IMG/VR virus record: IMGVR_UViG_3300025645_000410
Location: 1-25,526 of that record
DNA: 25,526 nt
Source: a virus
Strand: one strand, 5' to 3'
Positions 10,147 to 19,384 of this stretch are shown in pieces. Position 1 is the stretch's first letter, and every line of letters starts with the position of its first letter. A program made the translations under genes and the position numbers. Under the pieces are notes generated by a model. That model searched no databases and was not told the DNA's origin. It saw only the letters and a list, made by a program, of their open reading frames with translations.

Positions 10147-10674
10147 TTAGAACTGGTCATCAGCTTTAGGTTCGTTTGAAGCTGGAGCTGAACCATCTTC
10201 CATGTCGAAGTCCATACCAACAGCTTTCTTTTCATATTTTACCAAGTTAACAATCTGGATAGCGCTCAGTGTAGTACTGATACCTGATTTAGTTACCTTC
10301 TGTGTCTTTGGATTTTTGATTTCATATGGCTTTTGGAATACCATAACATTACCTACTGAACCATTACCAACAATCTTTGGGTCAAGTGCAAGTTTGTTGT
10401 TATCAACACAACGTACTTTAGCTGCTTCAGTACCATCCTGTTTGAATGCATTCTTGCTCAGATTGATACCAACCATACCCTCACCCATGTCACGCACTTT
10501 ACGGTAGATCGAGAGTTCTGCCTCACGAGCAGCCGGAACAAGAACTTGGATGTCATAAATCATTTTGTCACCGGAGTAGTTATCAACTGGTGTATCAATT
10601 TTGACCCATTTGAATGTGACGTTCTTGATGATAGCGTTTGTCATTTCGGTGGTGGATTGTGTAGCTGTAGTCAT
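10147..10674 (-). CDS. Single-stranded DNA-binding protein (T7 gp2.5-like role)
   Basis: A 175-aa protein with a beta-rich core (residues 15-145, e.g. NVTFKWVKIDTPVDNYSGDK, GNVMVFQKPYEI) and an acidic tail ending KADDQF. An acidic C-terminus with a final aromatic residue is the hallmark of phage and bacterial SSBs; in T7 it contacts polymerase and helicase/primase. GSVGNVMVFQKPYEIKNPKT, followed by ISTTLSAIQI, fits phage ssDNA-binding proteins of the gp2.5/DUF2815 type, but I cannot separate the subfamilies by eye. It is the first gene of the leftward replication operon, and a terminator follows directly. Confidence 0.8.
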   Translation of the reverse strand: MTTATQSTTEMTNAIIKNVTFKWVKIDTPVDNYSGDKMIYDIQVLVPAAREAELSIYRKVRDMGEGMVGINLSKNAFKQDGTEAAKVRCVDNNKLALDPKIVGNGSVGNVMVFQKPYEIKNPKTQKVTKSGISTTLSAIQIVNLVKYEKKAVGMDFDMEDGSAPASNEPKADDQF

Positions 10675-10697
10675 TTTATTTACCTTAAGTTTAGTTT

Positions 10698-10714
10698 GAG
10701 ATCAATGAGATCTC
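10698..10714. other. Palindromic hairpin GAGATC/GATCTC in the divergent SSB-terS gap
   Basis: GAGATC, a 5-nt spacer AATGA, then GATCTC, between the SSB start and the rightward promoter. As an inverted repeat it could be an operator or a 5' leader hairpin of the leftward SSB transcript. Its role is unknown. Confidence 0.4.
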
Positions 10715-10741
10715 TTTGGGTGGTACTTTCTAGTGTCATAC

Positions 10742-10761
10742 TAGTCGGTACCTATTAGAGA
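10742..10761 (+). promoter_or_regulatory. T7-like phage promoter, rightward (copy a), for terS
   Basis: TAGTCGGTACCTATTAGAGA, sharing the 13-nt core with seven other sites. By analogy with T7, initiation would fall in TAGAGA. The transcript would begin with a 6-bp hairpin, ACCATC/GATGGT around a CTTC loop at 10761-10776, similar in position to the structured 5' leaders of T7 late mRNAs. The small-terminase-like start follows 35 nt downstream of the element. Confidence 0.78.
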
Positions 10762-10795
10762 CCATCCTTCGATGGTTATTTGAGAGAGATATTTT

Positions 10796-11272
10796 ATGTC
10801 ATATGATAATGGTGATGGTGCTAATGCCTCCCGTGATAAGAAACGCGATGAGATGCTTGCTGCTACTGGTGGTGTCCGTAAAGGATGTCACCCTAATACA
10901 CTAGCTAACCTCAAGAAGATTACTTCTGAGACTGCTAGGATGAATCAAGCTAAAGGTCAACAATCTAAACTGCTGAATAAGACTATTCAAGAGGAGTTTA
11001 AACTGAATGCTAAAGCTTTTCAGAACATCATGGCTGACCTACCTAGGTTGTCTTCTTTGGATGTACTTAGAATGGCTGTTCACACTGCTATTGCTAAGGA
11101 TAATTGGGAAGATGCTGCTAGGTATGCTGGCTTGCTTGCTGAGTTTGAAGCACCTAAATTACAGAGAATTGAATCATCAGTTACAACTAGAGCATCAGAA
11201 ATGTCTGACGATGAGTTGCGCTTGATGATTGCTTCTGAAGGGCTTACACCTTTATCTTTAGGTACCGACTAG
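10796..11272 (+). CDS. Putative terminase small subunit
   Basis: A 158-aa basic, helical protein. An N-terminal region with RKGCHPNTLANLKKITSETA is followed by helices, LRMAVHTAIAKDNWEDAARY and AGLLAEFEAPKLQRIESS, and by MSDDELRLMIASEGL near the end. The pattern of A--Y--PKL-R-E followed by MSDDEL is typical of small terminase subunits of P22/T7-like phages, but there is no diagnostic residue set. It is the only rightward gene between 1 and 16.7 kb, separated from terL by 6.5 kb of leftward genes. The last four codons and the TAG stop are the reverse complement of a leftward promoter core. A generic DNA-binding protein is the alternative. Confidence 0.6.
   Translation: MSYDNGDGANASRDKKRDEMLAATGGVRKGCHPNTLANLKKITSETARMNQAKGQQSKLLNKTIQEEFKLNAKAFQNIMADLPRLSSLDVLRMAVHTAIAKDNWEDAARYAGLLAEFEAPKLQRIESSVTTRASEMSDDELRLMIASEGLTPLSLGTD
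11252..11271 (-). promoter_or_regulatory. T7-like phage promoter, leftward (copy h), inside the end of terS
   Basis: On the minus strand this reads TAGTCGGTACCTAAAGATAA. A degenerate half copy, CAGTCGGTAACTAG, lies directly upstream of it. It would transcribe leftward, antisense across the whole small-terminase gene, and then into SSB and the replication operon, for which no other promoter of this type exists. The initiating region (AAAGATAA) departs from the others, so its strength is uncertain. Confidence 0.6.
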
Positions 11273-11499
11273 TTACCGACTGAATCTGGACGGTCTGAGA
11301 GCGGGTCGTATTCTTTTGCTGGTGTCTCGAAGATCTGCTTCAGGACATCTACAATCGTGATACCACCTCGCAGCATACTGTATGGTGGTGCTTCGATGAT
11401 TGTGGCGATGAACAGCTCTGAGGTGTAATCTTCACCAGACTCAACAAGGAGTTGGTAACCGTTAGAGCATTTGGTGATTGTTACTGATTGGTTGTTCAT
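11269..11499 (-). CDS. Hypothetical protein (76 aa)
   Basis: Starts MNNQSVTITKCSNGYQLLVE and ends AKEYDPLSDRPDSVGN; a beta-rich N-terminal half is followed by GGITIVDVLKQIFETP. The frame is open to an ATG at 11514, but the ATG at 11499 sits just after the stop of the preceding gene (TAACATG). The stop codon region overlaps the end of terS on the other strand by 4 nt. No family recognised. Confidence 0.65.
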   Translation of the reverse strand: MNNQSVTITKCSNGYQLLVESGEDYTSELFIATIIEAPPYSMLRGGITIVDVLKQIFETPAKEYDPLSDRPDSVGN

Positions 11500-11500
11500 G

Positions 11501-11680
11501 TTATAGTGATCCATCGATGATTAATGAGAAACGAGCTGTGATTGGCTTACCTAGCTCGTGGAAGGTGAGGTTTTCTATTTTTGTATCGGAGTCACCAAAG
11601 GTGCTTATGTATAGTTCATAAGCTAATTCTATGGTCTCATCCATTACTATCTCACCACATGAGTCTATGCAGATGTACAT
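11501..11680 (-). CDS. Hypothetical protein (59 aa)
   Basis: An ATG at 11680, with AGGAA 6 nt upstream, opens MYIC IDSCGEIVMDETIEL and ends TARFSLIIDGSL. The size and spacing (1 nt to the next ATG, 1 nt after the preceding stop) fit the packed gene arrangement around it. No motif assigned. Confidence 0.65.
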   Translation of the reverse strand: MYICIDSCGEIVMDETIELAYELYISTFGDSDTKIENLTFHELGKPITARFSLIIDGSL

Positions 11681-11681
11681 T

Positions 11682-12032
11682 TTATTTCCTATTGTAGATT
11701 GTGCGACCTAGATCATTTAGAGTACCTATGATGGTTGCTCTATGGCGTGGGAATATGCATTGGGTTTCTCCTTTCTTTACATATTGTTTGGGAATATCAA
11801 GAACCACTATTCTAGCTTCCTTGCTGTTGATGATGTGTTTGAGCTTACTTTTATACCACCAACGGTAGAATTGAGCTTTACTTGTAGCACCACATACTTG
11901 GCTTGGGTGCATGTAACCTAGCCCGTCATTTTCTGGGCATGGTAACTCAATCCAATGGCGGGAGAGTTTCCATAGGTCGCCTGTTCTACCTTCTTTAGGG
12001 TTTGTGCGGGATTCAACTCTGTAGACTTGCAT
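11682..12032 (-). CDS. Hypothetical protein (116 aa)
   Basis: Begins MQVYRVESRTNPKEGRTGDL, with HWIELPCPENDGLGYMHPSQ and VCGATSKAQFYRWWYKS, then a basic C-terminus. His and Cys residues are scattered but form no clear zinc motif. The start lies 115 nt inside the preceding frame, an exceptionally long overlap, with AGAAGAA upstream as a weak SD. No family recognised. Confidence 0.65.
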   Translation of the reverse strand: MQVYRVESRTNPKEGRTGDLWKLSRHWIELPCPENDGLGYMHPSQVCGATSKAQFYRWWYKSKLKHIINSKEARIVVLDIPKQYVKKGETQCIFPRHRATIIGTLNDLGRTIYNRK

Positions 12033-12133
12033 AGGAATTCTTCTATTTCAGATAGGATGTGACCGACTGGGTTGATGATTTGACCAGCCATTTTGAGGGG
12101 ATCTGTTTGGTGTTGTGGTGTGTATTGTGGCAT
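11918..12133 (-). CDS. Hypothetical protein (71 aa), heavily overlapping its neighbour
   Basis: The ATG at 12133 overlaps the upstream stop as TAATG, which supports translation. The first half, MPQYTPQHQTDPLKMAGQII and NPVGHILSEIEEFLCK, occupies otherwise empty DNA. The second half is read out of frame across 115 nt of the 116-aa gene. Either both are translated, or an indel has extended this frame into the neighbour. Confidence 0.45.
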   Translation of the reverse strand: MPQYTPQHQTDPLKMAGQIINPVGHILSEIEEFLCKSTELNPAQTLKKVEQATYGNSPAIGLSYHAQKMTG

Positions 12134-12600
12134 TATGTGTTTAGTTCCTTAAGTTTGGCTTCAAAGTCTTTAGCAAAGAATGAGGCTTGCAGCGTGTACG
12201 CTTTACCTAAAACCATGTGTATATCATCATCCGTCAACCCCACCCATTCGCGCTTTGGTGGTGATGTGTAGACGGGCTTTGCTTTAGGCTCGTTTGGGTA
12301 GGCAATAGCCAATACTGGCATACAACTCCAATCGTTCACAACTTTAAGCCAAGCCACAGGCTCCTGCTCGGACTTCATTAGGGCAATCGTCATGGCTTGA
12401 TCTGCTGCTATTCCTTCCCAATCTGTCTCCTGCTCTAGTTTCGACAAACCCATGACCGACATTGACGCGCTAGTTTCAGATTCGGTCAGACCATTGATAA
12501 GCACAGGCTCTGGTTGCGCTAGTCCACCGGGACGATACGTCATGTCTTCAGGTGTCCACTCCTGCTCTAATTGCGCTTGATGTTTGTGTGGTGTGTTCAT
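12133..12600 (-). CDS. Accessory hypothetical protein (155 aa), PVYTSPP type
   Basis: The C-terminal half has EPVAWLKVV, KPVYTSPPKREWVGLTDDDI and AKDFEAKLKELNT. This recurring EPVAW...PVY-PP...LTDDEI layout is common in phage accessory proteins, which I associate with phages of Betaproteobacteria. The N-terminal half is low-complexity and acidic. No function is known. The ATG at 12600 overlaps the upstream stop by 4 nt. The 34 nt around its start recur around 13167 with two mismatches, so the 5' end belongs to a duplicated segment. Confidence 0.7.
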   Translation of the reverse strand: MNTPHKHQAQLEQEWTPEDMTYRPGGLAQPEPVLINGLTESETSASMSVMGLSKLEQETDWEGIAADQAMTIALMKSEQEPVAWLKVVNDWSCMPVLAIAYPNEPKAKPVYTSPPKREWVGLTDDDIHMVLGKAYTLQASFFAKDFEAKLKELNT

Positions 12601-12614
12601 TCTGTTACTCCAAA
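12581..12614. repeat. 34-nt direct repeat, copy 1 (gene junction)
   Basis: Positions 12581-12614 match 13148-13181 with two mismatches in 34. On the minus strand each copy holds the end of a KFAELIIREC-type gene, an SD-like GGAGT, an ATG and the codons for M(N/K)TPHK. It marks one edge of a duplicated module. Confidence 0.8.
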
Positions 12615-12782
12615 GTGTTCCATAATTTCACCCATCGATGCGTATGCTTTATGTTTATAACCTATATCTAAACATTCTCGAATAATCAACTCGGCGAACT
12701 TTTGTATCTGACTGGCTTGCGCTTCGTAATAAGCGTGCAACCTTGCCTGTTCAGCAAGTTCCTGTATGCGGTTGGCTTTCAT
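12597..12782 (-). CDS. KFAELIIREC-type small phage protein (61 aa), copy 1
   Basis: Starts MKANRIQELAEQARLHAYYE and contains KFAELIIRECLDIG, ending GEIMEHFGVTE. This RIQELAEQA...FAELIIREC...HFGV type is a frequent stand-alone small phage protein. The frame is open far upstream (to 13097), but the ATG at 12782 overlaps the stop of a 31-codon ORF as ATGA. The upstream reading belongs to a frameshifted neighbour. A paralogue with the same core lies at 13172-13369. Confidence 0.7.
   Translation of the reverse strand: MKANRIQELAEQARLHAYYEAQASQIQKFAELIIRECLDIGYKHKAYASMGEIMEHFGVTE
12673..12701. repeat. 29-nt direct repeat, copy 1 (encodes FAELIIREC)
   Basis: Matches 13275-13303 with one mismatch. 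It encodes the conserved core of the two paralogous small proteins. With the 34-nt repeat it shows that a segment of this cluster was duplicated. Confidence 0.8.
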
Positions 12783-12874
12783 AACGGTGCGTCTTCGTAG
12801 TTGTTGGGATTGAACTTCGGCAGTGGTGCATTCGGCTGCTTCACGGGCAGCGTTAACGGGAAGGGCCAAGTCAT
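12779..12874 (-). CDS. Small Pro/Asn-rich ORF (31 aa)
   Basis: The ATG at 12874 overlaps the ancestral stop of the frameshifted gene as ATGA, and its own TGA overlaps the next ATG in the same way. The peptide runs MTWPFPLTLPVKQPNAPLPK and continues FNPNNYEDAPL. Coupling at both ends argues that it is a real gene hidden by the continuous neighbouring frame. Function unknown. Confidence 0.5.
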   Translation of the reverse strand: MTWPFPLTLPVKQPNAPLPKFNPNNYEDAPL

Positions 12875-13097
12875 TTTGCCCTCGCTTCCAGCATGGCGTT
12901 GGCCATCTTGTATGCCCGAGCAGCAGTGAAGGCAAAATATCTTCATGTAGGCTGTTGATCATGTCGGCCTGCATCGCTTTCGCTGCCAAGTAATTACGCA
13001 AGGTCATACCGTATTCGGACTCTTGGTTTAATTCGCCATCAGGAAAGCGCGTTTCATTTACTGGAAACGCTGGCCCGTTGTAGTTAACTGCATTCAT
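12871..13097 (-). pseudogene. Frameshifted GPAFP-type phage accessory gene
   Basis: From the ATG at 13097 (SD GGGAG upstream) the frame reads MNAVNYNGPAFPVNETRFPD and GMTLRNYLAAKAMQADMINS. This is a common phage protein type whose ending normally looks like A-KMADAML-AR. In the current frame the sequence continues as an unrelated LPSLLLGHTRWPTPCWKRG. In another frame, from about 12927, it reads YFAFTAARAYKMANAMLEAR and then AK-stop at 12871, which is the expected C-terminus. One base seems to be missing near 12925-12935 (GATATTTTG). The result is a disrupted gene, or a sequencing error, and the frame runs on to 12597 as a false 166-codon fusion. Confidence 0.7.
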
Positions 13098-13101
13098 ATC
13101 T

Positions 13102-13167
13102 TTACTCCCTCAAAAAAAAAACACGACTGCCGATGGGAACGGCGCACTGTTTGTGTGGTGTTTTCAT
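13102..13167 (-). CDS. Remnant or micro-ORF (21 aa) duplicating the MNTPHK start
   Basis: An ATG at 13167 with a good SD (GGAGT, 7 nt) opens MKTPHKQCAVPIGSRVFFLR. Its first six codons and leader copy those of the gene at 12600. The rest is unrelated and passes through a T10 tract. It is probably a truncated duplicate left by the same event that copied the upstream small gene. Confidence 0.3.
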   Translation of the reverse strand: MKTPHKQCAVPIGSRVFFLRE

Positions 13168-13171
13168 TTTG

Positions 13172-13369
13172 TTACTCCAAAATACTTAGTAAATCTCTTT
13201 GCATCAGGTCAATCATTTCAACCCAACTATCTGATTCCATGTTTGCTTTACTATACTTTTCTAACACGGTAACGCATTCTCGAATAATCAACTCAGCGAA
13301 CTTGTGCCTATCTAACCCACCCTTGCTATCAGTTGCTTGTAAAGCCAGTACATCAATTTGGTTATTCAT
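13172..13369 (-). CDS. KFAELIIREC-type small phage protein (65 aa), copy 2
   Basis: Starts MNNQIDVLALQATDSKGGLD and continues RHKFAELIIRECVTVLEKYS. It shares the core with the protein at 12597-12782. The frame is open further upstream, but the ATG at 13369 overlaps the stop of a small membrane-protein ORF as ATGA and has GGGAA before it. The longer reading would be an out-of-frame translation of that gene. Confidence 0.68.
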   Translation of the reverse strand: MNNQIDVLALQATDSKGGLDRHKFAELIIRECVTVLEKYSKANMESDSWVEMIDLMQRDLLSILE

Positions 13370-13476
13370 CTGTTTTCCCATAGTTCCCTTAGCCATACAT
13401 ACAACAGCATATAGATACCAATTGCACAACCAATGAACATCACTGTTACTGTCCACTTGAATACTTCATCCACCAT
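13366..13476 (-). CDS. Single-pass membrane micropeptide (36 aa)
   Basis: The ATG at 13476 overlaps the upstream stop as TAATG and the TGA overlaps the next start as ATGA, so it is coupled on both sides. The peptide MVDEVFKWTVTVMFIGCAIG continues IYMLLYVWLRELWENR. One membrane segment covers about residues 8-29, with charged ends. It may be a holin-like or regulatory membrane peptide; no family recognised. Confidence 0.65.
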   Translation of the reverse strand: MVDEVFKWTVTVMFIGCAIGIYMLLYVWLRELWENR

Positions 13477-13712
13477 TATTTATCTCCTTCGCTACGACCG
13501 ACCCTTACTTCCTTAACTTCAGTAATCTTACCATCAACAAATGTCTTCTGAATACCTGTTGAAGGATCAAATACAACTGATGTTTTTGCTTTTACATGGG
13601 CCTTACACCTTGCGATGAGGTCATTGTAGACTGCTCTGGCTGTGGTTGTTACAATAAGGGTCGGATCGTTAGACCGATCCTTCTTATGTGGTCTGTCTGA
13701 ATAATCACTCAT
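13476..13712 (-). CDS. Hypothetical protein (78 aa) carrying a repeat-encoded KKDRSNDPT segment
   Basis: Starts MSDYSDRPHKKDRSNDPTLI, then a helical part (ARAVYNDLIARCKAHVKAKT) and VFDPSTGIQKTFVDGKITEV. KKDRSNDPT is encoded by a 29-bp hairpin repeat that also forms the tail of the protein at 14004-14258. This suggests insertion of the repeat into coding DNA. The start overlaps the upstream stop by 4 nt. No family recognised. Confidence 0.65.
   Translation of the reverse strand: MSDYSDRPHKKDRSNDPTLIVTTTARAVYNDLIARCKAHVKAKTSVVFDPSTGIQKTFVDGKITEVKEVRVGRSEGDK
13658..13686. repeat. 29-bp hairpin repeat, copy 1
   Basis: Exactly identical to 14018-14046. Within it GGTCGG pairs with CCGATCC with one bulged T, or alternatively GGATCG pairs with CGATCC. 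A related element with the same bulged stem lies at 16197-16215 in the opposite orientation. Both 29-bp copies lie inside coding frames. Confidence 0.8.
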
Positions 13713-14002
13713 GATGTTAGTGCTATGGTTAGATTGTGTTGTAATGTTGGTAGTTTGTTTTGCTTTATGAGGATATCTAGTAGTGTTGTTACATCACTTT
13801 CTTTTAGGGTTATGCTGTAGGTGTATGAGGTTATTGTTACTGGTTCTTTAATTACTTGCATGTCTGTCTTTATTTTCCTTAGCCATATTACGCTTGTACA
13901 ATCTTCTAATTGACGACATAACTCGCTATTATTTTCAGCAGCACAACCCACACAACCTCTTAGTCTTGGTGCTGATTGGTATTCTATGCTATCTATTATC
14001 AT
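13709..14002 (-). CDS. Cys-containing hypothetical phage protein (97 aa)
   Basis: The first half has SAPRLRGCVGCAAENNSELC and QLEDCTSVIWLRK, a four-Cys arrangement (C-x2-C-x8-C-x6-C) compatible with zinc binding. The second half is a separate beta/alpha segment (TSYTYSITLKESDVTTLLDI). The ATG at 14002 has GGAAATAAT directly upstream. A short Cys-rich domain of this type with the R-RGC-GC opening occurs in other phage genes. Function unknown. Confidence 0.68.
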   Translation of the reverse strand: MIIDSIEYQSAPRLRGCVGCAAENNSELCRQLEDCTSVIWLRKIKTDMQVIKEPVTITSYTYSITLKESDVTTLLDILIKQNKLPTLQHNLTIALTS

Positions 14003-14003
14003 A

Positions 14004-14258
14004 TTATTTCCAGTTATGGGTCGGATCGTTAGACCGATCCTTCTTAGGCGCTAAATGCTTTCTAATTACACGGAATATATCCACAAGTATATCTGAGTCA
14101 CTATATTCTCCGAATGCATCTCGGCGTGATAGTGGTGAACTATTACCGATGAGGTCTGCGAAGTGTTGTGCTTCTGTTTCTGTGAGGATGAGCTTGATGG
14201 AAGCTTCGATGTGGACTGGGTTGTATTCTGTGTGTGATGGGATGTGAGTTACTTGCAT
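14004..14258 (-). CDS. Hypothetical protein (84 aa)
   Basis: Starts MQVTHIPSHTEYNPVHIEAS and contains ILTETEAQHFADLIGNSSPL. The C-terminal KKDRSNDPTHNWK is encoded by the hairpin repeat at 14018-14046, so the original tail may have been replaced. It is the first gene of the leftward cluster, next to the large gene-free region. AGAAAG about 9 nt before the ATG may serve as SD. Confidence 0.65.
   Translation of the reverse strand: MQVTHIPSHTEYNPVHIEASIKLILTETEAQHFADLIGNSSPLSRRDAFGEYSDSDILVDIFRVIRKHLAPKKDRSNDPTHNWK
14018..14046. repeat. 29-bp hairpin repeat, copy 2
   Basis: Identical to the copy at 13658-13686, 360 bp away, and overlapping the last codons of the 84-aa gene. See copy 1 for the structure. 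Confidence 0.8.
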
Positions 14259-14498
14259 GGTGGCTTTCTGGAGTGGATGGATTGGGTAGTGGATTGTGGG
14301 TAGATATTTGGGTAGTGGATTTGGTGTAGACCTCTGTGGTAACGTTCAAATAGTTCGTTTTCGGGTAGATTTCGATCAAATAATTAGTCTAACACAGCAG
14401 TCACACACAAAAACACTATCAATGTGAACTTTTGTACAGTAAACCGCAGTTTAACCTGATGTATCTTCAGCAGATACTACAGTTTTCCTGATGTATTT

Positions 14499-14518
14499 TA
14501 GTCGGTACCTATAGAAGA
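14499..14518 (+). promoter_or_regulatory. T7-like phage promoter, rightward (copy b)
   Basis: TAGTCGGTACCTATAGAAGA. The core is perfect; the initiation part (ATAGAAGA) is one base shorter before the purine run than in copies c-e. It is the first of three tandem sites and no rightward gene follows for 3.2 kb. Confidence 0.7.
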
Positions 14519-14576
14519 ACACATCCCATATATCTAAAAGTTATATAGAATGTAGTCATCATAACCAACTAACGAG

Positions 14577-14596
14577 TAGTCGGTACCTAATAGGGA
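14577..14596 (+). promoter_or_regulatory. T7-like phage promoter, rightward (copy c)
   Basis: TAGTCGGTACCTAATAGGGA. Of the eight sites this one has the initiation segment closest to T7 (TATAGGGA), suggesting a start at the G run. It lies 78 bp after copy b and 38 bp before copy d. Confidence 0.78.
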
Positions 14597-14614
14597 GTGT
14601 ACTGGCTGTAGTTT

Positions 14615-14634
14615 TAGTCGGTACCTAATAGAGA
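14615..14634 (+). promoter_or_regulatory. T7-like phage promoter, rightward (copy d)
   Basis: TAGTCGGTACCTAATAGAGA. The third tandem site. A transcript from here would run about 400 nt to the long hairpin at 14979-15045 before entering leftward genes in antisense. Confidence 0.75.
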
Positions 14635-14929
14635 AGGTTTTAGGAAAGGTTTCAGGGAAGTAGTTGTAGTGGACTATCTGTATATTCGCATGGTAATACA
14701 TCGTATGTAGATAGAGTCACAGCAGCCTAGTAGTAGCAGTACACATATGTAGGGGTGTGTACAGTCTTAATTGACAATGTGAGCCTAGGTAGACGGTGGT
14801 GGTTGATCTAATCAACTATTGCTGATCGTTGTACAACTACTTCCCGTTCCCCTACGGGAGTAATATTAGGTAATGTATTGGTGAATATACTGGTTGTAGA
14901 CTACCTTATGTTATTTGTTTGTTTTGTAT

Positions 14930-14971
14930 TATACTTTAAATATAATACTTTAGAGTATTCATTAAAGTATA
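14930..14971. other. AT-rich extended hairpin
   Basis: A perfect 10-bp stem, TATACTTTAA (14930-14939) with TTAAAGTATA (14962-14971), encloses a second 6-bp stem, AATACT/AGTATT, with a TTAG loop. It is almost entirely A/T and therefore easy to open, as expected for an origin unwinding element or cruciform. Confidence 0.65.
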
Positions 14972-14978
14972 TTTAGGT

Positions 14979-15045
14979 AACAAACACAACCAATCAGAGG
15001 CACCAGCAATAGAGTATTACTGGTAAATCTCTGTGGTTGTTTGTT
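14979..15045 (+). terminator. Long hairpin, possible rightward terminator
   Basis: AACAAACACAACCA (14979-14992) pairs with TGGTTGTTTGTT (15034-15045) with a 2-nt bulge. Inner stems are AGAG/CTCT and ACCAG/CTGGT, and the tail TTCTCTTTGTCTTT is U-rich on the plus strand. It would end transcripts from promoters b-d, giving RNAs of about 400-550 nt without a gene. A second TTTGTTTGTTTT at about 14916 could pair with the same left arm, allowing an alternative fold. Confidence 0.5.
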
Positions 15046-15091
15046 TTCTCTTTGTCTTTAATCTACAGGCAACATTCAGTATATACCTATA

Positions 15092-15334
15092 TTACTCTTT
15101 GATGGTCTCTGTTTCCTCTTCTGATGACTCGTAGACAGCGCCATACTCGATGATATTCCCCGGAAGATCCAGATTGAATGCTGCCTGAGTGAGCGCATCT
15201 AGTGACCTGCAAGTGATGTAGTTGTTGTCTCCTGAGTGGATGTACGATAAGCCGAACTCTTCAAGAGCCTCGGTGAATTCTTCTGTTGATTCAAAAGATG
15301 ACATGTCGATAGGTGAGAGGAGAAGGTATTTCAT
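15092..15334 (-). CDS. Acidic hypothetical protein (80 aa)
   Basis: Starts MKYLLLSPIDMSSFESTEEF and ends in a glutamate-rich tail (SSEEETETIKE). The net charge is strongly negative, which is typical of phage proteins that mimic DNA or bind host factors, but nothing specific is visible. The leader has GGATACACC before the ATG, similar to the other small genes of this cluster. Confidence 0.65.
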   Translation of the reverse strand: MKYLLLSPIDMSSFESTEEFTEALEEFGLSYIHSGDNNYITCRSLDALTQAAFNLDLPGNIIEYGAVYESSEEETETIKE

Positions 15335-15369
15335 GGTGTATCCTAGGTTGTGTTTAATGGGTCAAGGAG

Positions 15370-15398
15370 GCATAGAGTATGTTGAGGATACCCTATGC
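15370..15398 (-). other. Intergenic hairpin between two small genes
   Basis: GCATAG and GTAT pair with ATAC and CTATGC around a 7-nt loop with one mismatch. It lies between the stop of the 106-aa gene and the start of the 80-aa gene on the leftward transcript. No U-tract follows, so mRNA processing or stabilisation is more likely than termination. Confidence 0.5.
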
Positions 15399-15410
15399 TA
15401 TAGGTTGTGG

Positions 15411-15731
15411 TTAGAGGATGTTATAGAACCAGACATTGGCACTAGCACCACCAGCAGCGATGAATCGGATCTCCTGCTTGGTATCAAATGCTACCTGCAG
15501 TGCTTTAGTCAGCAGCTCAATAGCACGGTCACTGCTCATGCGGTCAATACGGCATTGACGTTTACGCTTGTCTGAGCATGTAGCTTCGATAGATCGAGTG
15601 ATCTCATTGAATGTCAACTCAACGATTGTTACTTGGTCACTCATGTTGTCAGCCATCGTTGGGTTGTTAGTCACGAATGGTACATTGATCTTGTTGATGG
15701 ACTTGAACGATGGTGTGAAAGATGTAGTCAT
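15411..15731 (-). CDS. Hypothetical protein (106 aa)
   Basis: Contains QVTIVELTFNEITRSIEATC, a basic central stretch (SDKRKRQCRIDRMSSDRAIE) and QEIRFIAAGGASANVWFYNI. It is beta-rich and ends hydrophobic. The ATG at 15731 has AGG about 9 nt upstream (TAGGCTACTATC). An internal ATG at residue 26 or 30 is possible. No family recognised. Confidence 0.65.
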   Translation of the reverse strand: MTTSFTPSFKSINKINVPFVTNNPTMADNMSDQVTIVELTFNEITRSIEATCSDKRKRQCRIDRMSSDRAIELLTKALQVAFDTKQEIRFIAAGGASANVWFYNIL

Positions 15732-15757
15732 GATAGTAGCCTAGTTTAGTTTAAAGG

Positions 15758-15777
15758 ACAAGGAACATACCCCTTGT
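15758..15777 (-). other. Leader hairpin ACAAGG/CCTTGT
   Basis: A 6-bp stem with an 8-nt loop, 26 nt upstream of the 106-aa gene start and after the 36-aa gene. It is one of a series of hairpins that separate the small genes of this cluster. A further TCTCT/AGAGA stem follows at 15784-15796. Confidence 0.4.
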
Positions 15778-15811
15778 TATGGTCTCTCTTCCAGAGAATG
15801 GTGGTTAGGTA

Positions 15812-15922
15812 TTAACCAATAACAACCTGGTACTCGCTGTTGCTATACAGACGGAGTATACAGAAGTCAGTTGTCTTGCGAACAAGTTTGTTGGTTGTAC
15901 GCTTGTAGATGTAGTAACACAT
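15812..15922 (-). CDS. Small basic hypothetical protein (36 aa)
   Basis: An ATG at 15922 with a strong SD (AAGGAG, 6 nt) opens MCYYIYKRTTNKLVRKTTDF and continues CILRLYSNSEYQVVIG. It is basic and beta-like. The consensus SD and the clean spacing from neighbours support it as real despite its length. Function unknown. Confidence 0.65.
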   Translation of the reverse strand: MCYYIYKRTTNKLVRKTTDFCILRLYSNSEYQVVIG

Positions 15923-15931
15923 GGTAGCTCC

Positions 15932-16120
15932 TTATAACGAGTTATGATCTTCAATGATCTCTTGCACTAATCGCATGATCTGTGTAGCAGCAATACCACC
16001 ACAGAAGAACATAGCCAAGATATGCAAGAGACCAAAGTCACCAGCCTCCATGATCTCGAGGAGTGACATTGCAGTGTAGAACCAAGTGATCCCAAGGATC
16101 ATGTGAAAGAGTTTAGACAT
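15932..16120 (-). CDS. Small membrane protein with two probable TM segments (62 aa)
   Basis: MSKLFHMILGITWFYTAMSL gives one hydrophobic segment, and GLLHILAMFFCGGIAATQIM a second, with an acidic hinge (EIMEAGDF) between them and an acidic tail. This is holin-like in size and topology, but it sits far from any lysis gene. The frame is open to 16162, but the ATG at 16120 has GGAG 8 nt upstream. Its role could equally be superinfection exclusion or another membrane function. Confidence 0.65.
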   Translation of the reverse strand: MSKLFHMILGITWFYTAMSLLEIMEAGDFGLLHILAMFFCGGIAATQIMRLVQEIIEDHNSL

Positions 16121-16160
16121 GGTAGTCTCCAGTTGTGAGGTCTCAGAATGAGCACTCTCC

Positions 16161-16178
16161 ATAGCCCCAAGAGGCTAT
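16161..16178 (-). other. Hairpin ATAGCC/GGCTAT downstream of the SSB-tail gene
   Basis: A 6-bp stem, extended by CC/GG past a bulged A, on the leftward transcript between the DDIPF gene and the two-TM protein gene. No U-tract follows. It continues the series of intergenic hairpins. Confidence 0.4.
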
Positions 16179-16196
16179 AGGCAGGGTTCTTAAGGA

Positions 16197-16215
16197 GGAT
16201 CGGTACGACCGACCC
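16197..16215 (-). repeat. Related bulged hairpin repeat (third copy, inverted)
   Basis: On the minus strand GGGTCGGTCGTACCGATCC. GGTCGGT pairs with ACCGA(T)CC, with the same bulged T as in the two 29-bp copies. It directly follows the stop of the DDIPF gene. The 15-mer TACGACCGACCCTTA here (16204-16218) also occurs at 13493-13507. Confidence 0.65.
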
Positions 16216-16617
16216 TTAGAAAGGGATGTCGTCAGAGTGAGCAACAGCTGAACGATTCACTGTGTTGTACCAAACCAACGCAGCATTAACATGCGGCAAG
16301 ACCTCTTCCAAGGTGTTCCACGAAGGAGCCTGCAAGTTGATAAGCAACTCCCACACGTCATCCAGCATGTGAGCCGAGGCGTATGCCTCACCATCAGAGC
16401 ACCGACCGTCCTCGTTAGACGCATCAAAGAACAAGTCCATAGTCTCAAACACAGACTGCCGGATGGGTGTAAACAAAGCCAACCAGCCAGCGTGCTGCCC
16501 AGGAGACAGGCTAGTGCCTTCAACCACACCAGCAGAGGTAGCCCAGTCCGAGTAGTCACGACGCAGGCAGTTGTCGCCGAAGTTAAGGACAGCGAGGAGT
16601 TGTTGTGATGTATTCAT
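16216..16617 (-). CDS. Hypothetical protein (133 aa) with SSB-like C-terminal tail DDIPF
   Basis: Starts MNTSQQLLAVLNFGDNCLRR; the body is acidic and Trp-rich (GWLALFTPIRQSVFETMDLF, MLDDVWELLINLQAPSW). It ends AVAHSDDIPF. The last five residues match the C-terminus of E. coli SSB (DDDIPF), the peptide that recruits PriA, RecQ, RecO, ExoI, HolC and others. The body shows no OB-fold signature that I can recognise, and the phage already has an SSB at 10147. I infer a protein that borrows or blocks host SSB-partner binding. The ATG at 16617 follows a hairpin leader (16629-16646) repeated before the A-depleted gene at 16923-17363. The frame is open to 16674. Confidence 0.7.
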   Translation of the reverse strand: MNTSQQLLAVLNFGDNCLRRDYSDWATSAGVVEGTSLSPGQHAGWLALFTPIRQSVFETMDLFFDASNEDGRCSDGEAYASAHMLDDVWELLINLQAPSWNTLEEVLPHVNAALVWYNTVNRSAVAHSDDIPF

Positions 16618-16628
16618 TGGGAAGCTTT

Positions 16629-16646
16629 CAGCGGACGAACCGCAAA
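16629..16646 (-). repeat. Leader hairpin B, copy 2 (before the DDIPF gene)
   Basis: The minus strand reads TTTGCGGTTCGTCCGCTG, an exact 18-nt match to 17375-17392. GCGG pairs with CCGC around a TTCGT loop. It lies 11 nt upstream of the ATG at 16617. Confidence 0.85.
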
Positions 16647-16648
16647 AC

Positions 16649-16664
16649 AGAGCAAAGACGCTCT
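16649..16664 (-). terminator. Hairpin with U-tract between the A-poor genes and the DDIPF gene
   Basis: On the minus strand AGAGC pairs with GCTCT around GTCTTT, followed by GTTTT. It resembles a short terminator or attenuator. Its GCGTCTTTGC centre is also close to the GCGTCTTGCC of leader hairpin A, so the leader of the DDIPF gene has the same order (hairpin A type, T-rich spacer, hairpin B) as the leader at 17375-17421. Confidence 0.5.
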
Positions 16665-16700
16665 CGGAAGGCACCGAAGAGGAGCCAACCGGGAAAGCCC

Positions 16701-16871
16701 TTAAGCAAACAAAGGCGCAATAGCAACAGCACCACTACGCCAAGTATACAGCGCACGAACAACCCGACCGTCACGGAGGCGCAGGAAGACAGGGACAACA
16801 GAACAACGAGCACCGCGACGAGCACGGGAAGAACGCAACGAACGAGCAAAAGAAACAGAACGAGCAGACAT
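16701..16871 (-). CDS. Basic 56-aa protein from adenine-poor DNA
   Basis: Starts MSARSVSFARSLRSSRARRG and continues ARCSVVPVFLRLRDGRVVRA, then LYTWRSGAVAIAPLFA. It is rich in Arg and Ser with no Lys, Asn, Gln, Glu or His. Only 8 of 171 coding-strand bases are A, three of them in the start and stop codons. The ATG is preceded by GGGG (an A-free SD substitute) and by a 32-nt leader copied from the upstream gene. It could bind nucleic acid through its Arg-rich first half. No family recognised. Confidence 0.6.
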   Translation of the reverse strand: MSARSVSFARSLRSSRARRGARCSVVPVFLRLRDGRVVRALYTWRSGAVAIAPLFA

Positions 16872-16887
16872 AGCAGACCCCAAGAAG

Positions 16888-16919
16888 AAAGACACGGGCA
16901 AGACGCCCAACGAGAACAA
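16888..16919 (-). repeat. Leader repeat A, copy 2 (32 nt)
   Basis: Exactly identical to 17390-17421. On the minus strand it contains a GGGC/GCCC stem with a GTCTT loop followed by GTGTCTTT. It occupies most of the gap between the stop at 16923 and the ATG at 16871, so here it is non-coding. Confidence 0.88.
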
Positions 16920-16922
16920 CGA

Positions 16923-17363
16923 TTAAGCAGCAGACACGCCACAGAAGTAACCGGGACACACACGGCCCGAAGAACCGGGAGCACCCCACAAGGACACGGG
17001 AGCACCGGAAGCGACAGCAACCCGAAGAGCAGCGACAAGAGCCACAGCAGCAGGCGAACCAACACCCCCCAAGCCAGAGCACAAGCAACGCAACACACCA
17101 ACACCGGGAACAGAGAGAACAACAGCACCACGAACCGCGTCCCACGACAACGAACCAGCAGGCAAGACAACGGGAGCACGAGACACGGGAACAAAGCGAG
17201 AGGAAGCAACAGAGCGACCCGACACAGACAACGAGGCAGGGACACCAGCACCCGAGGCCAGAGGGCAGGCAGCAGGAGCAGCAACAACAGCACGGAGCAA
17301 CGACGCAGCACCCACAACAGGGAAAGAAGAAACAACAGAAGCGAAAGAAGAAGAAGAAGCCAT
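16923..17363 (-). CDS. Adenine-depleted 146-aa protein
   Basis: Starts MASSSSFASVVSSFPVVGAA and ends PGYFCGVSAA. It consists almost only of Ala, Val, Ser, Gly, Leu, Pro, Arg, Cys and Phe, with one Asp, one Tyr and no Lys, Asn, Gln, Glu, His, Ile or Thr. Of 441 coding-strand bases only five are A: the start ATG, the TAA stop (two), one Asp codon and one Tyr codon. As remain where a start and stop need them, and codons follow a regular GNT/TCT rhythm; both favour this frame over the other open ones. The C-terminal half (SGLGGVGSPAAVALVAALRV, ASGAPVSLWGAP) hints at a Rossmann-like fold. I looked for DprA/SLOG motifs and found none clearly. GGTGG before the ATG may act as an A-free SD. The frame stays open upstream to about 17573. 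Confidence 0.6.
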   Translation of the reverse strand: MASSSSFASVVSSFPVVGAASLLRAVVAAPAACPLASGAGVPASLSVSGRSVASSRFVPVSRAPVVLPAGSLSWDAVRGAVVLSVPGVGVLRCLCSGLGGVGSPAAVALVAALRVAVASGAPVSLWGAPGSSGRVCPGYFCGVSAA

Positions 17364-17374
17364 AACAAAACCAC

Positions 17375-17392
17375 CAGCGGACGAACCGCAAA
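17375..17392 (-). repeat. Leader hairpin B, copy 1 (before the A-depleted gene)
   Basis: An exact 18-nt copy of 16629-16646, overlapping the end of leader repeat A by 3 nt. GCGG/CCGC stem with TTCGT loop, 11 nt upstream of the ATG at 17363, the same distance as in the other copy. Confidence 0.85.
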
Positions 17393-17421
17393 GACACGGG
17401 CAAGACGCCCAACGAGAACAA
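17390..17421 (-). repeat. Leader repeat A, copy 1 (32 nt)
   Basis: Exact copy of 16888-16919 with a GGGC/GCCC stem and T-rich tail. It is followed directly by hairpin B. Confidence 0.88.
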
Positions 17422-17570
17422 AGAAGAACCAACCCGAACGCGAGCAGACCCGAAGGAAAGACGCAAGGAAGGAACAGCGACCACCGCCCAAGGAAAGCAC
17501 CCAAGGAAAACAAGGGGGCCAGACAAGGAAAACAGGGGAAGCCAACAACAACACCTGATTCTTTGACACA
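17422..17570 (-). other. A-free leader upstream of the 146-aa gene
   Basis: About 135 nt (17422-17555) with no A on the minus strand, rich in TTTCCTTG-like short repeats (CAAGGAAA on the plus strand, at least three times). No stop codon can occur in any minus frame here, so no separate gene ends inside it. It is a 5' leader or an N-terminal extension using a GTG or TTG start. Past 17556 the composition returns to normal. Confidence 0.45.
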
Positions 17571-17695
17571 CACAGACAGGGTTCACCCCAGAGAATTTCA
17601 ATAAGTCACTACCCAAAAATTTATTAAAATTTTCCAGGAGCAAATTCAGCTCACAATTTATGAGCTTAAGTTTAGTCGGATTTCCTCCACTGAAG
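17571..17695. other. AT-rich intergenic region before the terL promoter
   Basis: Holds an A/T palindrome (AAAATTT/AAATTTT, 17616-17633), a hairpin AGCTCA/TGAGCT (17648-17666) and a truncated promoter copy, TTAGTCGG, at 17672-17679. This is where a leftward host-type promoter for the A-depleted operon would have to lie. I could not find a convincing -35/-10 pair. Confidence 0.4.
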
Positions 17696-17746: not shown

Positions 17747-19384
17747 TTGGCTATTACAAACAACACCAAGCTAGAAGCACTTCGCGAACTCAAGAAGAGA
17801 GAACGCCTAGCAGCTTACCAAGACAACTTCGAATTATTCGCCAGAGAGCAGATCAAGATTTTACCCAAGGATTCCTCCAAAGGATTCCTACCTTTTGAAT
17901 TCAATACAGCACAACATATTGTTAACGAAGCTATTGAGAAACAATTAAAGGAAAAAGGTAAAGTCAGAGCTATCATCTTAAAGGCTCGCCAGATGGGGCT
18001 TTCCACATATACCACATCCAGAGTATTCTGGAAGGCATATCTGAATCCCTACCACAAGTCAGTTGTCATGGCTCATGATGCAGCTACTTCTGACTCGCTC
18101 TTCACGATGTCCCGTAATATTATTGATTACATGACACCAGTGTTTAAGCCAGAGTTTAAGAAGTCTAATGCTAAAGAAATTATGTTTCAGCATAACGACT
18201 CGGGATACCGCCTATTTACTGCTGGAGCACCAGAGGCTGGTCGTGGTCAAACACCAACCATCTGCCACCTTTCTGAGGTAGCATTCTGGAATCATGACAC
18301 CAAGATTCTTTCAGGATTATTCCAAGGTATCTCTGAAGCTCCCGGCACAGAGGTTATTCTGGAGTCCACAGCTAATGGTATCGGCAATGAGTTTCATAGG
18401 CTATGGCTAGGAGCTGAGAAGGGCGAAAACGATTATATCCCTATCTTTGTTGCTTGGTTTCTTATGCCAGAGTACTCCCGTAAGGCTCCAGAAGGGTTTG
18501 AACAGACAGCTGAGGAGATAGTTCTTGTTACAAGGTATTCACTTACTGAAGACCAGCTATACTGGAGAAGGCTTAAGATTGCTGAAGGTGGATACGATAA
18601 GTTCCGTCAGGAGTATCCTTCTAATCCCGAGGAAGCATTTCTTGTCTCTGGCTCGAATGTATTTAACATTGAAAAGTTATCTCAACTAATACCACAACCA
18701 ATCCTAGCTCATAGAGAATTCAACTTTGAATCTCGTATGATGGAGGATGCTAGGGGTGGTTCTATCGAGATCTTTAAATATCCCACCTTTGAACATTCTT
18801 TTGCTATTGGAGCAGATGTATCATTAGGTGTAGGTAAAGATTATTCATCATGCGTTGTAATGAATGCAGAACGGGAGGTATGTGCAGTATACAGAAACAA
18901 TACCATTGATCCTTCTCAGTTTGGTGATCTACTATTCTATCTGGGCAGATACTATAATAATGCCCTTCTTGCGGTAGAATCAAACTCGATGGGTATAGCT
19001 ACGCTGAATAGGTTAACTCAAATGAAATATTTGAACATGTACTATCAGACTAAGATGGCTAATGTATCTAAAGAAGAAGGTAACCGTATTGGTTGGAGGA
19101 CTACCTCAGCCAGTAAACCCGCTATTATTGGCTTCTTAAAGAATGCTATTGAGCAGGGTGATGTGATGATTCCCTCAAGAACTATCATTGGTGAACTTAT
19201 GAATTATGTCTCAACTGATAATGGGAAGACTAATGCAAGTTCAGGATACAATGATGATACTGTGATTGCCTTAGCTATTGCTCTTGAAGTAATCAGAACT
19301 CATGGTGATAAACTAACAACAACAAATGTACCCTTCGCTCAGAAGATGGGGCAATACCAAGAGGTTAAAACAACATGGCTATAA
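17747..19384 (+). CDS. terL: Terminase large subunit
   Basis: A 545-aa DNA-packaging motor. Residues 75-90 (AIILKARQMGLSTYTT) hold the Walker A region and TICHLSEVAFW (E177) the Walker B/catalytic Glu. ILESTANGIGNEF fits the coupling motif, and NPEEAFLVSG is the usual linker. The RNase H-like nuclease follows with D357 in IGADVSLGVG, E411 in AVESNSMG and D503/D504 in NDDTV. All appear intact. The start is TTG with AAAGGA 4 nt upstream; no in-frame ATG fits better. The type resembles headful-packaging P22/Sf6-like TerLs more than T7 gp19, but this is only by eye. Confidence 0.95.
   Translation: MAITNNTKLEALRELKKRERLAAYQDNFELFAREQIKILPKDSSKGFLPFEFNTAQHIVNEAIEKQLKEKGKVRAIILKARQMGLSTYTTSRVFWKAYLNPYHKSVVMAHDAATSDSLFTMSRNIIDYMTPVFKPEFKKSNAKEIMFQHNDSGYRLFTAGAPEAGRGQTPTICHLSEVAFWNHDTKILSGLFQGISEAPGTEVILESTANGIGNEFHRLWLGAEKGENDYIPIFVAWFLMPEYSRKAPEGFEQTAEEIVLVTRYSLTEDQLYWRRLKIAEGGYDKFRQEYPSNPEEAFLVSGSNVFNIEKLSQLIPQPILAHREFNFESRMMEDARGGSIEIFKYPTFEHSFAIGADVSLGVGKDYSSCVVMNAEREVCAVYRNNTIDPSQFGDLLFYLGRYYNNALLAVESNSMGIATLNRLTQMKYLNMYYQTKMANVSKEEGNRIGWRTTSASKPAIIGFLKNAIEQGDVMIPSRTIIGELMNYVSTDNGKTNASSGYNDDTVIALAIALEVIRTHGDKLTTTNVPFAQKMGQYQEVKTTWL

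Follow-up and report, generated by a model that had tools for sequence, protein, structure and literature searches.

The window analysed here, a 25,526-nucleotide stretch of viral DNA (positions 1 to 25,526 of IMG/VR record IMGVR_UViG_3300025645_000410), encodes a small acidic protein, P0001, that ends in exactly the canonical DDIPF tip of bacterial single-stranded DNA-binding proteins (SSBs). Since unrelated early proteins in sister phages have ends of a similar kind, this one is probably a genuine docking tail and not a coincidence. We think it rather likely that it docks onto host SSB-interacting proteins, either as a recruiter or as a decoy. The first-pass annotation of this DNA had proposed an SSB-type tail on a protein that is not an SSB, and the exact canonical end, a permuted-tail control and the recurrence among sister phages all lend support to that proposal.

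The P0001 gene occupies positions 16216..16617 of the minus strand, with its ATG at 16617 and its TAA at 16216-16218, and its translation of 133 amino acids ends in AHSDDIPF. The last five residues and the stop are encoded by GACGACATCCCTTTCTAA (16216..16233, minus strand), a DNA pattern found once in the window and in none of 100 shuffles. The ORF ending in SDDIPF that had been noted in the first pass does look like a coding gene in its codon-position composition, with A in only 8% of third positions. No Shine-Dalgarno-like sequence was found upstream of its ATG, and the A-free genes upstream of it likewise have no obvious one. In a minus-strand transcript whose start adjoins the divergent terminase gene (17747-19384, plus strand), P0001 comes third, and from this layout beside the terminase we infer that it belongs to the early class. 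The portal of the phage is of the SU10 type (E = 5e-128).

P0001 appears to stand outside the SSB proteins, no sign of an SSB domain being detectable in its sequence. It had no match in PHROGs up to E = 1 or among PDB sequences up to E = 10, and nothing above the cut-off in Pfam, where the one sub-threshold match (E = 0.1) was to a family other than SSB. Neither the OB-fold domain of PF00436 or the SSB PHROG (in Pfam, PHROGs and PDB sequences) nor a match to phrog_112 or SBB_T7 was found. An AlphaFold2 model made from the single sequence (mean pLDDT only 53) has four helices and no strands, and residues 118-133 fall below a pLDDT of 50 in a model that is weak throughout. These results bear out the earlier observation that the protein has no visible OB-fold signature, and the structure prediction of the protein alone that had been suggested as a check gave, at low confidence, an all-helical fold without an OB fold. 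The helical matches that Foldseek returned for this weak model (best E = 0.8) were all meaningless.

A small protein of early position with a helical model, a pI of 4.2 and a net charge of -13 might also be an acidic DNA mimic or a different early inhibitor of the host whose body does the work, with DDIPF being incidental. Considered as an Ocr-like anti-restriction DNA mimic, P0001 is acidic; PHROGs, the PDB and Foldseek with the weak model gave nothing that resembles a DNA mimic in family or fold, and its complete lack of lysine can be explained by the avoidance of A in this genome region. Furthermore, the permuted-tail control described below indicates that viral ORFs seldom end in this way by chance, and we consider an action through the body alone improbable.

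By sequence comparison, the body of P0001 is an orphan. Its sole relative is encoded by IMGVR_UViG_3300006920_004767, which is 99.9% identical over 8.3 kb and carries the identical protein. A search of 50,697 phage records gave no homologue; genome contigs, viral contigs and PADLOC gave none beyond one near-identical viral contig, and 37 related phage records gave none, the last in a search run without a positive control. Roseobacter phage CRP-7, the closest isolate by terminase (59%), has its genes in this region on one strand and no counterpart of P0001.

Viral contigs were scanned for DDIPF followed by TAA with the second Asp codon fixed as GAC, which gave at least 120 stretches. Among the matches listed (80 loci), 80 of 82 terminate ORFs of at least 60 aa, whereas the permuted control PDIDF, written with the same codons and then TAA, occurs in 19 stretches of the entire collection, of which 6 lie in ORFs of at least 60 aa. 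A viral ORF that ends in DDIPF is thus rarely a chance product. The biggest identified group among the 78 distinct proteins of the matches listed is SSB-like (phrog_44 in 16, PF00436 in 15). The non-SSB proteins among these listed matches include a primase (phrog_21866), helicases, a DnaB-type helicase and an AEP primase, together with the small family phrog_1811 (matched by at least three members of the sample) and unassigned proteins, so that this phage is not alone in having an SSB-type tail on a protein that is no SSB. Such proteins resemble P0001 in joining a canonical SSB tail to a body that is not an SSB, but they are unrelated to it in sequence and many of them are replication enzymes. 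Viral proteins of about 73 aa with a DDDIPF end were also seen on three contigs (L163 1279-1497, L192 1958-2176 and L215 4580-4798).

Closer to the window, 80 terminase and 80 portal relatives yielded 56 distinct sister contigs with an A-poor region. Of the 371 distinct ends of early genes, 5 carry the pattern [DE]x0-3[ILVM]PF, where internal positions of these proteins would predict 0.03; the test relied on mechanical ORF calls and was prompted by the window's own protein, which counts among the five. Plain PF is found at nine of the 371 ends (0.52 expected). The five ends are SDDIPF of P0001, CDYIPF in contig L004, DQEIPF and MDIPF in two members of one family (L015 and L063) and SDDLLPF in L054. 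Outside the 56-contig set, L119 encodes another orphan that ends in EEDDDDIPF. Where an ORF with a ribosome-binding site has an acidic PF end in the 25 genomes compared, whole or partial, it is nearly always an SSB or a tailed early-region protein. In two families of the sister phages, Y and K, some members have the PF tail and others lack it, a patchiness that fits a movable module but also means that the tail is not essential to those bodies. P0001 as a diverged member of family K, which occupies the same place and has some PF tails, was ruled out by an hhalign probability of 0.1%.

Some family K and X tails have the DNA junction CCATTCTAAGGAGA in common, so that DNA exchange could explain part of the recurrence of tails, and CCCTTTCTAAGGG at the stop is able to fold into a short hairpin. 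The tail might on these grounds be a by-product of junction or hairpin DNA at gene ends and not a selected peptide. However, the codons used for it vary (ATC CCT TTC, ATC CCG TTC, CTC CCC TTC, ATT CCA TTC and ATC CCA TTT), the acidic residues would be left unexplained, and the A-poor gene of L054 keeps both Asp codons of its tail. We therefore judge a mere DNA by-product very unlikely.

The phage also encodes an SSB of its own, and the separate gene with a DDQF end that the first pass had reported is indeed there: a gp2.5-type SSB at 10147..10674 on the minus strand (phrog_112, gp2.5-like, E = 5e-10) that ends in ADDQF. Like this T7 gp2.5-type protein, P0001 has an acidic tail with a terminal Phe, but it lacks the gp2.5 domain and ends in DDIPF instead of ADDQF. 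The gp2.5-type SSBs of the group end in DDQF, DSQF, DSDF, NDDF, EEAMF, EEPMF, EEGMF, DDSPF, EDSPF, EDDIPF or DDDIPF. The SSB tail of the window has neither the Pro nor the hydrophobic residue, whereas the P0001 tail is host-type in the sense of the canonical bacterial tail with E. coli as reference, which may not be that of this phage's host. A host-type end on P0001 beside an SSB without Pro weakly favours host partners.

The same set of SSB ends bears on whether the P0001 tail may instead dock on the phage's own replication proteins, the normal binders of gp2.5-type SSB tails, in which case P0001 would be a replisome accessory or regulator and not host-directed. Sister SSBs ending in DDSPF, EDSPF, EDDIPF or DDDIPF mean that replisome proteins of the group may recognise such tails, and several of the viral DDIPF proteins described above are replication enzymes; yet the ADDQF end of the SSB that these partners would serve in this very phage differs from the P0001 tail in the two respects just named. 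Docking within the phage replisome strikes us as a possible but doubtful role. The numbers do not support a restriction of tailed early proteins to phages whose SSB no longer ends in PF: of 19 phages with a non-PF SSB, about 5 have a tailed protein (a count that takes in a weak NLPF case and a pair of near-identical genomes), and of 7 phages with a PF SSB, one has a KDVPF protein. In L329 (2334-2585), an ORF of 83 aa that has a ribosome-binding site ends in FKDVPF, and the SSB of the same phage ends in DDDDIPF.

The P0001 gene borders an early region devoid of A; this region is conserved throughout the group and may be a more striking feature than the tail. At window positions 16619-17605, the minus-strand transcript contains about 2% A over nearly 1 kb, and 56 distinct related contigs have a similar A-poor stretch, about 150-1200 bp long, upstream of their terminase gene. 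The A-free gene at 16923..17363 (minus strand, 146 aa) has A only in its start, its stop, one Asp codon and one Tyr codon, and the second gene at 16701..16871 (minus strand, 56 aa) is nearly A-free. Counted from the terminase side along the minus strand (10147-17363), A at fourfold-degenerate sites amounts to 0%, 0%, 9% (P0001), 17% and 34%, followed by 37%, 50%, 71% and then about 30-40%. The A-free gene of L015 (138 aa, upstream of the terminase) has an A-rich homologue at L134 3084-3437 (30% identity, E = 1e-12), so that genes seem to have been rewritten to avoid A, with changes of amino acids as the price.

The link between P0001 and the A-depleted genes that had been drawn from leader repeats holds up as well: the 18-nt repeat TTTGCGGTTCGTCCGCTG is present in two copies of 100% identity, one just upstream of P0001 (16629..16646, minus strand), where it holds the hairpin GCGG-TTCG-TCCGC, and one upstream of the A-free gene (17375..17392, minus strand). 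The first four early genes each have a hairpin with TCTT in its loop ahead of them (at 17405, 16903, 16658 and 16172, minus strand), one of which is the leader hairpin AGAGC-GTCTTT-GCTCT (16649..16664, minus strand); the entire minus strand has eight such hairpins, compared to 1.1 in shuffles, and an Rfam search of the leaders found no known RNA. A 34-nt intergenic stretch with the hairpin ATAGCC-TCTTGG-GGCTAT is identical at window positions 16151-16184 and at L004 2114-2147, and the two phages share it though their early genes have diverged.

Docking on the SSB tip is well known: it forms a hub in the DNA metabolism of bacteria, and inhibitors are being designed against it. Under the host-directed docking that we favour, a helical P0001 body would bear a short disordered C-terminal tail that imitates the acidic SSB tip with its DDIPF and free C-terminal Phe, and this tail would enter the SSB-tip pocket of host SSB-interacting proteins early in infection. 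Putative partners are ExoI, PriA, RecO, RecQ, the chi subunit of Pol III, DnaG and similar proteins, which P0001 would either recruit to the phage or withhold from SSB-coated DNA. These host partners may not be served by the SSB of the phage itself, which ends in DDQF and lacks the Pro.

The nine-residue tip of E. coli SSB binds PriA and chi by itself, and the SSB tip serves at least 17 partners (PMC7145534); since the tip suffices for binding, any protein with such a tip at an exposed C-terminus could fit the same pockets. Compared to the bacterial tip (MDFDDDIPF in E. coli), that of P0001 has the same last five residues, acidic and at a free C-terminus, and likewise follows a stretch of low model confidence. 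Unlike bacterial SSB, however, P0001 shows no OB fold in the searches or in its weak model, and its short tail lacks a long Gly/Pro/Gln-rich linker, while its docking is predicted. PriB engineered to carry a fused SSB tail became a stronger stimulator of PriA (PMC8509808). This PriB-SSBc chimera (PMC8509808) parallels P0001 as an SSB tail on a protein that naturally has none, but it is man-made, has an OB-fold body and carries the entire SSB C-terminal domain.

A dedicated non-SSB phage protein with an SSB tip is not described in the open-access literature that we searched, with subscription papers and preprints outside its scope. Tentatively, and with less than even confidence, we suggest that the phages of this group repeatedly put SSB-tip peptides on unrelated early proteins, which might act as interchangeable decoys or adaptors for host SSB partners in a job separate from that of their own SSB, whose tail has drifted from the host type. 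If it is true that phages commonly put the SSB tip on non-SSB proteins, these proteins would be natural probes, and perhaps natural inhibitors, of this hub, and the four-letter tail with its free Phe would make it easy to list candidates among phage genes of unknown function.
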